This document shows positions 20,303 to 22,953 of a stretch of DNA of 64,000 nt, piece after piece. Numbering within the stretch: position 1 is the first letter of the stretch; each line of letters begins with the position of its first letter. Source of the stretch: Sphingomonas sp. 67-36 (GTDB taxonomy: Bacteria; Pseudomonadota; Alphaproteobacteria; Sphingomonadales; Sphingomonadaceae); assembly GCA_001897375.1 (NCBI GenBank), contig MKSU01000032.1:62001-126000 (forward strand), written 5' to 3'. A program made the translations under genes and the position numbers. Below the pieces are notes generated by a model. That model saw only the letters and a list, made by a program, of their open reading frames with translations. It did no database searches and was not told where the DNA came from.

Positions 20303-20395
20303 CCGCGCGTAAACCGAAAGGTAAACGTCCCGGGGTGATACGTCCCGGCGGCGCTGCTTGTCTCGCGGGGCCGATTGTGGGACTGCATGGGCGAG

Positions 20396-20806
20396 ATGAG
20401 CGACGAAACCGACCATGACGGCGAACCGCGCGAGGCGCGCACGACGCGAAGGCGCGCGTTGATGCTGGGCGCGGCGGGGGCGGCGGCGGTCGTCTCGATC
20501 CGCCCGGCGCTGGCGCAGACGGCGGGATCGGTGCTTACCTGCGAGATACCGGTGCCCGATCCGGGCCGCGCGGGCGGCTATATCGATGCCAATGGCAATG
20601 TCGTGCCGGCGGGGACGAAGAACGCCTTCGCGCCGCCGCTCCGCCCGCTGAAGGGCGAGGACGTGCGCCGCGCAATGGCGACCGGGGGCAATCTGCCCGG
20701 CATGGATTACGAACGCAGCCGCGCCTATCTCAAATATGTCGGGCGGCTGCAGCGCGGGACGACCGGCTTCACCTGCTTCGCCTCGCTCCAGATGCTGCGG
20801 AAGTAA
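20396..20806 (+). CDS. Small Tat-signal protein linked to the HPr-rel-A-like cassette
   Basis: A 136-residue protein with a twin-arginine signal (TTRRRALMLGAAGAA, arginines 18-20) and a likely cleavage site after ALA at residue 40, so it should be exported folded. The mature part of 96 residues has two cysteines (Cys49 in LTCEIP and Cys127 in GFTCFAS), a Gly/Asn/Asp-rich stretch (GGYIDANGNVVPAG) and a basic C-terminus. I recognise no domain. Seven bases separate its stop from the PqqD-like start, so it is very likely in the same operon as the PqqD, kinase and nucleotidyltransferase genes. It may be the substrate of that system; this is inference. Start chosen at the ATG in 20396, with gtg/atg alternatives just upstream. 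Confidence 0.75.
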   Translation: MSDETDHDGEPREARTTRRRALMLGAAGAAAVVSIRPALAQTAGSVLTCEIPVPDPGRAGGYIDANGNVVPAGTKNAFAPPLRPLKGEDVRRAMATGGNLPGMDYERSRAYLKYVGRLQRGTTGFTCFASLQMLRK

Positions 20807-20813
20807 TCGCGCG

Positions 20814-21077
20814 ATGGCCGCGACGCGCTATCGCGCGCCGGCCCAGGGCGGGCTGCGCATCGCGGCGCTCGACGATCTCGTCGCCATCTATCATCGCGCG
20901 TCGGGCATCACCCATCTCGCCGTCGCGCCGGTGCCGGAGCTGATGGAGGCGATGGCGGGCGAATGGCGCACGCTGGACGCGCTGGCCGACGCTTTCGGCC
21001 TCGCGGCGGACGAGCGCGGCGCGCTGATCGAGCGGCTCGAGGAACTGGTCGCGACCGGGCTGGTCGAGGCGGCGTGA
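20814..21077 (+). CDS. PqqD-family peptide chaperone (HPr-rel-A system type)
   Basis: An 87-residue protein of the PqqD/RRE (RiPP recognition element) fold: an N-terminal beta segment (LRIAALDDLVAIYHRASGITH, about residues 14-34) followed by a winged-helix-like half with LDALADAFGL and LIERLEELVATGLV. PqqD-type proteins bind precursor peptides for modifying enzymes. Genes of this size next to an HprK-like kinase and a nucleotidyltransferase are the arrangement described as the HPr-rel-A system. It overlaps the kinase start by four bases (GTGA). What it binds here is unknown. Confidence 0.78.
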   Translation: MAATRYRAPAQGGLRIAALDDLVAIYHRASGITHLAVAPVPELMEAMAGEWRTLDALADAFGLAADERGALIERLEELVATGLVEAA

Positions 21078-21925
21078 GGCACGTCTTCTCCGTTCGCATC
21101 GGGCCGGCGTCATTCCGCGTCGGATCGGACTGGCGCGCGCCGGTCGATCAGCTCCGCGCGCTCTATGCCGGATATCCCGCGCCGGAGGGGGGCATCGCCG
21201 ATTATACCGTGCGGCTCTCCGCGACGCGGCCGTGGCGGCGCTTCGTCCGCCCGTCGGTGGCGATCGCGGGCGATTACATGCTGCCGGACGCCGCGCCGCT
21301 GCCGCTCGCGCACGGTCTGCTCGCCGCCGAGATGGCGATGAACCTGCAACTCGCGCTGGGCGAGCGGCGCTTCCTGTTGCTCCACGCCGCGACGGTGGAG
21401 CGCGACGGGCGGGCGATCGTGCTGACCGGCGAATCCGGCGCGGGGAAATCGACGCTGGCGGCGCTGCTCTCCGCGCGCGGCTGGCGGCTGATGGGGGATG
21501 AGTTCGCGCTGCTCGATCCCGAAACCGGGCTGCTCCACGCCTTCCCACGGCTGGTGAGCCTCAAGAACGCGGCGATCGACGTGGTGCGCGCGGCGCTGCC
21601 CGATGCGCGCTTCGGCCCGCTGATGGCGGGGACACCGAAGGGCGATATCCGTCATCTCGTGCCGGGCGAAGCGGCGCTGGCGGCGATGGATCAACTGGCG
21701 CGACCGGTGCGGCTGGTCTTCCCTCGCTATGGTTTCACGCCCGACGCCCGCCCGGTCGGCGCGGGCGAGGCGTTCGTGCGGCTGACGCAGGCCTCGACCA
21801 ATTATGTCGCGCTCGGCGAGCAGGGATTCGACGCGCTGACCCGCTTCGTGCGCGCGGTACCGGCGATCGCGATCGACTATCCCGACGCCGCAAGCGCGAT
21901 CGCCGCGATCGAGGCGGAAGCGTGA
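21074..21925 (+). CDS. HprK-related kinase (HPr-rel-A type)
   Basis: A 283-residue P-loop protein related to the C-terminal catalytic domain of HPr kinase/phosphatase. Walker A is TGESGAGKST (residues 118-127), preceded by LLLHAATVERDG and followed by GDEFALLD (141-148), the segment corresponding to the second acidic motif of HprK. There is no obvious HPr or phosphotransferase gene nearby, so the target is probably not HPr; similar kinases act on peptide substrates in some lasso-peptide clusters. The start is GTG at 21074, overlapping the PqqD-like gene by four bases, and it overlaps the nucleotidyltransferase gene by four bases at its end. Confidence 0.8.
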   Translation: MRHVFSVRIGPASFRVGSDWRAPVDQLRALYAGYPAPEGGIADYTVRLSATRPWRRFVRPSVAIAGDYMLPDAAPLPLAHGLLAAEMAMNLQLALGERRFLLLHAATVERDGRAIVLTGESGAGKSTLAALLSARGWRLMGDEFALLDPETGLLHAFPRLVSLKNAAIDVVRAALPDARFGPLMAGTPKGDIRHLVPGEAALAAMDQLARPVRLVFPRYGFTPDARPVGAGEAFVRLTQASTNYVALGEQGFDALTRFVRAVPAIAIDYPDAASAIAAIEAEA

Positions 21926-22953
21926 GCGACGCGGCGCATCTGCTTTGCCGACTGCTTGCCGTGCCCGAGACGGCGTTGACACTCGATACCGGGCGATGGG
22001 GCGAGGTGATAACGGTCGCGCGCGCCGAACTGCTGATCGGCTCGCTCGCCTACCGCCTGCGCGGCCTCCCACTGCCGGCACGGGTGGAGGCGATCCTCGC
22101 GGCGGCGGTTCGCTCGGCGGAAGAGGGGCGGCGGCAAGCCTTGTGGGAGGCGGAAATGGCACGCCGCGCGCTCGCGCCGCTCGGCTGCCCGGTGATCCTG
22201 CTAAAGGGCACCGCCTTCGTCGCGGCGGGGCTGGACGCGGGGCAGGGGCGACATATCGGTGACCTCGATATCCTAGTGCCACGCGTCGCGCTCGATGCGG
22301 CGGAGACGGCGTTGCTCGCGGCGGGATGGGAGTGGGTGAAGCCCGATCCCTATGACGACAGCTATTACCGGCGCTGGATGCACGAACTGCCGCCGCTGAT
22401 CCATCGCGAGCGTGACAGGATGATCGACGTCCACCACACGATCCTGCCGCCGACCGCTCGGCTCACGCCCGACACCGCGCAACTGTTCGCCGCCGCCGCG
22501 CCGCTCGGCAACGGCCTGTCGATCCTGTCGCCGGAGGATATGGTGATCCATGCCGCGATCCACCTGTTCGCGGACGGCGATCTGTCGGGCGGCCTGCGCA
22601 ACCTGTGGGATATCGACCGGCTGGTGCGCGAGTTCACCGGGCTCGATGCGGATTTTCTGGCCAGACTCGCTGCTCGTGCGGATCTGCATCAGGCGGCGCA
22701 AGTCGTATCGCGGGCGTTGCGGGCGGCGCATCTGCTGTTCGATACGCCGGTTGAGGAGGGCAGAGCCGAGCGCTTATTCGATACAGCCGCGCGCCGCCGC
22801 CTGCTCGCACGCGACGGCTGGGGGCGCGGCACGCGGCCGGCGACGCGCTTCGCCTTCTACGTCCGCTCGCACTGGCTCCGTATGCCGCCGGCCATGCTGG
22901 CGCGGCACCTGTGGATCAAGGCCAGGTCGCGTGGTCGCCGCGAAAGTGCCTGA
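21922..22953 (+). CDS. Nucleotidyltransferase family protein
   Basis: A 343-residue protein of the nucleotidyltransferase family often found in peptide-modification cassettes. The minimal nucleotidyltransferase motif is visible: LLKGTAF (about 93-99), then GRHIGDLDILVP (109-120) with Asp114 and Asp116 as the metal-binding pair. A third acidic residue may be in MIDVHHT. The N-terminal helical part and the C-terminal half have no further motif I recognise. Start GTG at 21922 overlaps the kinase by four bases. It probably transfers a nucleotide or acts on an AMP- or phospho-marked product of the cassette; the reaction is unknown. Confidence 0.78.
   Translation: MSDAAHLLCRLLAVPETALTLDTGRWGEVITVARAELLIGSLAYRLRGLPLPARVEAILAAAVRSAEEGRRQALWEAEMARRALAPLGCPVILLKGTAFVAAGLDAGQGRHIGDLDILVPRVALDAAETALLAAGWEWVKPDPYDDSYYRRWMHELPPLIHRERDRMIDVHHTILPPTARLTPDTAQLFAAAAPLGNGLSILSPEDMVIHAAIHLFADGDLSGGLRNLWDIDRLVREFTGLDADFLARLAARADLHQAAQVVSRALRAAHLLFDTPVEEGRAERLFDTAARRRLLARDGWGRGTRPATRFAFYVRSHWLRMPPAMLARHLWIKARSRGRRESA

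Follow-up and report, generated by a model that had tools for sequence, protein, structure and literature searches.

A Tat-signal protein as the probable substrate of an HprK-related kinase cassette in Sphingomonas

What do the kinase and the nucleotidyltransferase of a compact gene cassette in Sphingomonas sp. 67-36 act upon? The cassette lies in a 64,000-nucleotide stretch of this genome (assembly GCA_001897375.1, contig MKSU01000032.1, positions 62,001 to 126,000, forward strand), hereafter the window. Its genes encode, in order, a protein with a twin-arginine translocation (Tat) signal, a PqqD-like protein of the type of RiPP recognition elements (RREs; RiPPs being ribosomally synthesized and post-translationally modified peptides), an HprK-related kinase and a nucleotidyltransferase. 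A preliminary description of the locus had noted four tightly packed genes, and such is their arrangement: all lie on the plus strand of 20396-22953, with one gap of 7 bases and then overlaps of 4 and 4. It had also named the families rightly, the matches to TIGR04353, TIGR04352 and PF14907 all exceeding their cut-offs, with TGESGAGKST present in the kinase and GDLD in the transferase (Table 1). The modification target was left open there; the evidence assembled here points to the product of the first gene itself as most likely, and we put the probability that the cassette is a dedicated protein-modification system acting on this substrate at a little over 0.6. The computed support comprises gene order, co-occurrence, conserved catalytic residues, a leader block found in two groups of Tat-signal proteins (hereafter Tat proteins), and two serines that are invariant in sphingomonads.

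The Tat protein is the likely substrate because it is present in every kinase genome examined. Within the family (Sphingomonadaceae), TIGR04352 exceeds its cut-off in 61 of 199 genomes; at expectation values (E) up to 0.001 there is some match in 189 of the 199, the best below the cut-off scoring 76.7 bits. A profile of the Tat protein with 39 rows (A2), searched at E up to 1e-4, matches in 61 of 199 genomes and the set is identical to that of the kinase, leaving 138 genomes with neither, so that the co-occurrence proposed as a check in the preliminary description is borne out for these two genes. Six genera (g22, g36, g44, g51, g54 and g69) are mixed, having both genes or neither. The two genes are unlinked on one contig in G042 (about 163 kb apart) and in G122 (about 279 kb), and lie on different contigs in G040. 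Stronger evidence of co-occurrence than the raw genome count comes from the genera of mixed presence and from the unlinked cases. Tat matches are weaker or partial in G007, G085 and G040 (E 9e-11 to 7e-16); in the G007 locus (L177) both genes are split over two frames, by decay or assembly error. At 98 sphingomonad kinase loci (L001 and L003-L099, with L082 and L094 truncated by contig ends), the transferase adjoins the kinase in 98 and the PqqD gene does so in 96, while 91 have the Tat gene within the stretch; because these partners recur, the four-gene grouping is not due to chance.

The association extends beyond the family. Among 398 genomes of the phylum the kinase was found in 62 (E up to 1e-25, 61 over the cut-off), 50 of them outside the family. 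In 34 of the 38 outside genomes whose upstream DNA was read, a Tat-signal open reading frame (ORF) stands beside the PqqD or kinase genes, one of these ORFs being short. A second profile (A3), built from 21 distant Tat proteins that we call class 1 and searched in 44 chosen genomes, placed the protein in the remaining four, on another contig in G278, G266 and G220 and divergent beside the kinase in G331. The same search found the protein in all seven of a further group of outside kinase genomes, beside the kinase in six and on another contig in G321, and matched one of 33 kinase-negative controls (G261, E 4e-4), in which, by reading, the resemblance is in the signal only. Altogether the Tat protein is present in 45 of 45 outside kinase genomes examined (45 of the 50, with G237, G366, G382, G528 and G561 left out), and in 41 it is beside the kinase, counting the divergent G331. 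The five genomes with the genes on different contigs (G040, G220, G266, G278 and G321) are drafts. A strict Tat pattern occupies the slot upstream of the kinase at 17 of 22 loci, whereas its frequency in the remainder of that DNA predicts 0.07 per slot. Eight loci have the Tat gene separated from the kinase or divergent to it; in five of them (L174, L184, L189, L190 and L191) a PqqD gene adjoins the Tat gene.

More distant relatives were also seen. Three plasmids match, and the one read, from Vibrio alfacsensis (L179, NZ_CP140104.1), carries the kinase, the transferase, an unlisted 84-residue ORF at the place of the PqqD gene and a 270-residue Tat-signal 'hypothetical protein' in the equivalent place, with 2-aminoethylphosphonate uptake genes adjoining. 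A metagenome-assembled genome of Planctomycetota encodes a short protein that has a Tat signal and a tail rich in cysteine (L103:3273-3542), 319 bases ahead of a diverged HprK-rel-A relative. Still more distant HprK-like proteins (L107-L111, E 2e-10 to 2e-14) occur in Alphaproteobacteria, Chloroflexi and others, some beside a weak transferase match.

The proposed substrate falls into no family of NCBIfam or Pfam. The window Tat protein gave chance-level matches only in both databases; 13 Tat proteins gave just weak partial matches under the cut-off in NCBIfam, nine of these 13 yielded no family in Pfam, and its counterpart in S. parapaucimobilis bears the annotation 'hypothetical protein'. The generic Tat model TIGR01409 gave no match to the window protein at E up to 1; the pattern RR..L..G is present in 89 of 91 sphingomonad relatives, the other two being truncated at the N-terminus. 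Across these 91 sequences C49, G124, C127 and S130 are invariant, as is S45 in all 89 that are long enough. Ser45 is residue 5 after the likely AxA cleavage site, and S130 belongs to a C-terminal [ST]CxxS[LIVF] motif, found in all 91, with 5-8 residues following that Ser. The AlphaFold2 model of the window protein (mean predicted local distance difference test score, pLDDT, 71.5; predicted template modelling score, pTM, 0.56) is below 50 pLDDT at residues 1-41 and suggests, with fair confidence, a folded domain at residues 61-130 (block means 83-93); a Foldseek search of the PDB with this model, at E up to 0.001, returned nothing. A comparable model of one class-1 protein is poor (mean pLDDT 57.6).

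Many Tat proteins share a leader block, a Ser after the signal-peptidase region and a C-terminal [ST]CxxS, and a second group is without these. In the 21 class-1 sequences R39, R40, P51, T55, C71, C90, C171, W172 and S174 are invariant and residue 66 is Ser in 20; as the rows were picked by eye, also for a C-terminal CWxS, the invariance of that motif is partly by choice. CWxS recurs in five further Tat proteins found via the A3 profile and read. When the two profiles are compared with hhalign, the leaders align, including the first Ser and Cys (probability 96.6, E 5.5e-10, 45 columns), and the mature parts do not. A hydroxyl residue of the signal (S34 in the window, T55 in A3) stands 11 residues ahead of the invariant Ser in 34 of 39 A2 and 19 of 21 A3 rows. 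As a control we took 12 Tat-signal matches from the window's own genome, only five of which pass the Tat model's cut-off: 15 of the 21 class-1 leaders outscore the best of these (5.1 bits), as do 3 of 12 other Tat proteins. Read by eye, the C-terminal motif is present in 24 of the 34 kinase-adjacent Tat ORFs outside the family; a pattern script flags 26 of 38 loci, namely the same 24, the divergent gene of L128, and L154, in none of whose Tat ORFs the motif is seen. Several of the ten motif-less proteins bear a C..SPG[WYF]W-like motif instead. A mature [ST]PG[WYFN][WF]-like motif and no C-terminal CxxS is seen in L100, L101, L144, L145, L157, L158 and L160, which perhaps represent a second substrate class.

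The kinase scores 22.1 bits against TIGR00679 (HPr kinase/phosphorylase), below the cut-off of 240, and its stretch H104-E143 aligns without gaps with HPr kinase 1jb1, reading His-Lys-Asp-Glu as against His-Lys-Asp-Asp, Glu replacing the final Asp; all four residues are invariant in 52 of 52 aligned kinases (alignment numbering 37 higher). The PqqD-like protein clears its model narrowly, by 0.6 bits, and matches nothing in Pfam at E up to 1. In the transferase K95, G96, R110, D114, D116, D169, H171 and H210 are kept in all 38 sequences compared, these being the ones among the 52 loci with a long enough transferase frame. We take D114 and D116 to be the two metal-binding Asp of the nucleotidyltransferase fold, and D169 its third Asp.

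Table 1. Genes and candidate functional residues of the cassette (positions are those of the window).
Feature	Position	Strand	Remark
Tat-signal protein gene	20396..20806	+	136 aa; no known family; proposed substrate
PqqD-like (RRE-type) protein gene	20814..21077	+	87 aa; TIGR04353 35.6 bits (cut-off 35)
HprK-related kinase A gene	21074..21925	+	283 aa; TIGR04352 242.7 bits (cut-off 200)
Nucleotidyltransferase gene	21922..22953	+	343 aa; PF14907 176.1 bits (cut-off 31.2)
N-terminal part with twin-arginine signal, proposed leader for PqqD-like protein	20396..20515	+	RR..L..G pattern; putative binding region
Ser45 codon, candidate phosphate acceptor 1	20528..20530	+	In 89/89 relatives reaching so far; putative acceptor
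Cys127-x-x-Ser130 codons, candidate acceptor 2	20774..20785	+	[ST]CxxS[LIVF] in 91/91 relatives
Kinase H104, P-loop with K125, D142, E143	21383..21502	+	Ungapped against HPr kinase 1jb1; 52/52 aligned kinases
Transferase D114, D116 (GDLD), D169	22261..22428	+	38/38 aligned transferases

By name, the closest known system is HPr-rel-A of NCBIfam, of whose families TIGR04352 (HprK_rel_A) and TIGR04353 (PqqD_rel_X) the cassette kinase and PqqD-like protein are members, and whose usual neighbour, the PF14907 transferase, is also present. In the open-licence literature we found no substrate model for HPr-rel-A, and no paper on HPr-rel-A, HprK-related kinase A or PF14907. The chemistry has precedents elsewhere. 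In paeninodin-type clusters and in those for linear polyphosphorylated peptides (LPP), HprK-like kinases add phosphate to a precursor serine (PMC9266682, PMC13381572). The LPP system of Bacillota (PMC13381572) has, like the cassette, a discrete RRE, an HprK-like kinase and an NTP (nucleoside triphosphate) transferase, the likeness of the transferases being one of enzyme kind. Both have a conserved leader with a variable remainder, and loci in polysaccharide clusters, for the cassette outside sphingomonads; paeninodin loci lie likewise in polysaccharide clusters. After cleavage the LPP core begins AQS, and LppK adds up to four phosphates to its Ser3, soon after a signal-peptidase-type cleavage site; candidate Ser45 stands in a similar register, and in the class-1 protein of L121 the Ser is residue 3 after ALA. 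The LPP leader consensus, YxxPxVLxHQxIxFETxxS, counts 15 residues from Pro to Ser, as do most class-1 Tat proteins from P51 to S66. The window leader departs from this motif, having Ala at the Pro position, 15 before S45 (Pro there in 6 of 39 A2 rows), and neither HQ nor FET; only the spacing and the Ser agree. Further, LPP has its own peptidase resembling signal peptidase I and an MsbA-like exporter, neither of which was found among the ten flanking genes scanned in the window, and the cassette differs in its Tat signal, its occurrence in Proteobacteria and its larger and probably folded product.

Lasso-peptide clusters of the paeninodin and pseudomycoidin type resemble the cassette in their HprK-like kinase, PsmN-type transferase and PqqD-like B1 protein (PMC7533575). 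Their kinases target a C-terminal Ser by means of a His-Lys-Asp-Asp motif that is essential by mutation (PMC9266682), and the presence of hexoses on the C-terminal Ser phosphate requires PsmN, whose annotation is nucleotidyltransferase (PMC9266682, PMC8498205). The cassette is unlike them in that its proposed substrate is a Tat-signal protein and that no lasso cyclase, B2 protease or exporter lies among the ten flanking genes. As in the cassette, the precursors of bufferins and other MNIO RiPPs are long and bear an export signal in the leader's place, but this is a Sec signal and the enzymes are different; that such a signal is recognised in bufferins has, according to the authors, preliminary support (PMC12452194).

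The flank scan in the window covered ten genes, phoU and the rest of the window being left out. One side holds phoB, pstB, pstA, pstC, a PstS-family protein and a PhoR-like protein (the last two under cut-off), the other a phosphoglycolate-phosphatase-like protein (under cut-off), glmU, glmS and one gene without a match; a weak VanZ match lies directly beside the cassette. Among 80 kinase loci from GTDB, 68 of them from sphingomonads, a phoR-like gene is within the stretch in 58 and glmU in 52, and because both recur near the kinase the position of the sphingomonad locus is stable. In many sphingomonads (L033-L099) a TTTACGATTGCGAAA-like stretch is visible by eye between the Tat gene and the divergent phoR, some tens of bases ahead of the former, and the same gap in the window (20303-20395) has GTAAAC-N6-GTAAAC in its place. 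Patterns for a repeat element upstream of the Tat gene matched one region only (L049) among 62 regions. In a Sphingobium clade an insert of about 1.4 kb separates the Tat and PqqD genes; in L064 it contains a glycosyltransferase-like gene (L064:6476-7657; TIGR03088 65 bits, PglJ 59, both under cut-off), and an equal gap is present in L065, L070, L073, L074, L078 and L083. At eight loci outside sphingomonads, eight neighbouring proteins picked by eye all exceed the cut-offs of XrtA/PEP-CTERM exopolysaccharide models (PrsT, an export protein, TIGR03088 four times, TIGR03087 and TIGR03013). Exosortase PF09721 occurs in 79 of the 398 phylum genomes and in 32 of the 62 kinase genomes, an association and not a requirement, and dependence on an exosortase was rejected; in the window's genome the exosortases are on contigs other than that of the cassette. 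A cell-surface role for the product is plausible.

Taken together, we propose that the PqqD-like protein would bind the Tat signal and leader region, keep the substrate in the cytoplasm and offer it to the enzymes. The kinase would then phosphorylate an invariant Ser, perhaps several times, most likely Ser45 and otherwise Ser130; the former is favoured because its register resembles that of LPP cores. The transferase may thereafter put a nucleotidyl or sugar group on that phosphate, and the finished protein, to judge from its signal, would leave the cytoplasm by the Tat route and be processed by the general signal peptidase. A number of points weigh against this scheme. Phosphorylation, and leader binding by the PqqD-like protein, are steps that we infer, and the two invariant serines compete as acceptor. 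The transferase step is the weakest, because LppN was without detectable effect in its host in the LPP study (PMC13381572). The family genomes are related and their counts not independent, such that 1/C(199,61) is not a probability of the hypothesis. Six of the 21 class-1 leaders, and 9 of the 12 other Tat proteins, score no better than Tat-signal matches from the window's own genome. At three of the eight split loci (L175, L176 and L187, in G042, G122 and G278) the Tat gene was found to have no PqqD gene next to it, and of the 38 outside loci 32 have a recognisable PqqD gene (the exceptions being L130, L131, L137, L157, L158 and L159). The transferase adjoins the kinase in just 25 of these 38; a PF14907 protein is present in all 38 inspected outside genomes, lying elsewhere for the 13 others and G220, in several about 2 kb from the kinase. 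Finally, 10 of the 34 outside Tat proteins are without the C-terminal motif, and those read mostly also lack a Ser near the cleavage site, so that one universal acceptor site is not supported.

Of the competing explanations, the one that survives best would make the Tat protein an exported pathway partner (an anchor, receptor or effector), with the three enzymes modifying a sugar, lipid or polysaccharide intermediate. The exopolysaccharide models matched by the eight non-sphingomonad neighbours, and the glycosyltransferase-like gene within the Sphingobium cassette, are congenial to it; nevertheless we consider it unlikely, as a protein of RRE type implies that its ligand is a peptide (PqqD, lasso B1 and LppB are established cases), the PqqD gene keeps to the separated Tat gene at five of eight loci, and PadeK, ThcoK, SyanK and LppK act on the precursor, though for PsmK and PsmN the stage is not known. 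That the four genes are merely inherited together at an ancestral locus, without a functional tie, would suit the stable place of the locus in sphingomonads, but is very improbable given that the partners persist far apart or on different contigs in the seven genomes named above, that the gene order recurs in other classes although the mature proteins are unalignable, and that none of the 199 family genomes has one partner only. Comparably remote is a regulatory HPr kinase acting on the HPr of the phosphotransferase system and lying beside Pho genes by chance: the kinase shares its fold family and active-site residues with HprK, but the same genome encodes a separate short HprK-like protein (TIGR00679 76.4 bits, under the cut-off of 240) and the cassette kinase tracks the Tat protein one to one. 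Least credible, and rejected, is an ordinary lasso-peptide or other classical small-peptide cluster, since of the lasso-type link drawn in the preliminary description the tailoring enzymes are apt, all three families being those of paeninodin and pseudomycoidin clusters, whereas the cyclase, B2 protease and exporter are not among the ten flanking genes scanned and the precursor is a 136-residue Tat protein whose mature part is predicted to fold.

The modification of the Tat protein by the enzymes encoded beside it thus remains our preferred reading. The kinase and PqqD families were already named by NCBI, and the chemistry has precedents; within the open-licence literature searched, the Tat protein as constant partner, its invariant serines and its Tat leader are new. 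More speculatively, and with considerable doubt, the cassette could represent a widespread Gram-negative class of RRE-guided Tat-exported proteins that are serine-phosphorylated and phospho-glycosylated (or nucleotidylated), in which the PqqD-type protein doubles as a proofreading chaperone that masks the Tat signal until modification; in many non-sphingomonad genomes the product would be part of an exopolysaccharide machinery of the exosortase type, where its phosphate may serve to carry or prime a glycan. That a partner without a family model accompanies the kinase one to one renders the substrate question testable, with one protein and two candidate serines. If the proposal is correct, RRE-guided products would have Tat as a route of export, of which we found no description in the open-licence literature, where no paper was found that treats a RiPP precursor peptide together with a twin-arginine signal peptide. 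A tailoring module of HprK-type kinases, RREs and PF14907 transferases would then exist that serves exported proteins as well as small peptides.

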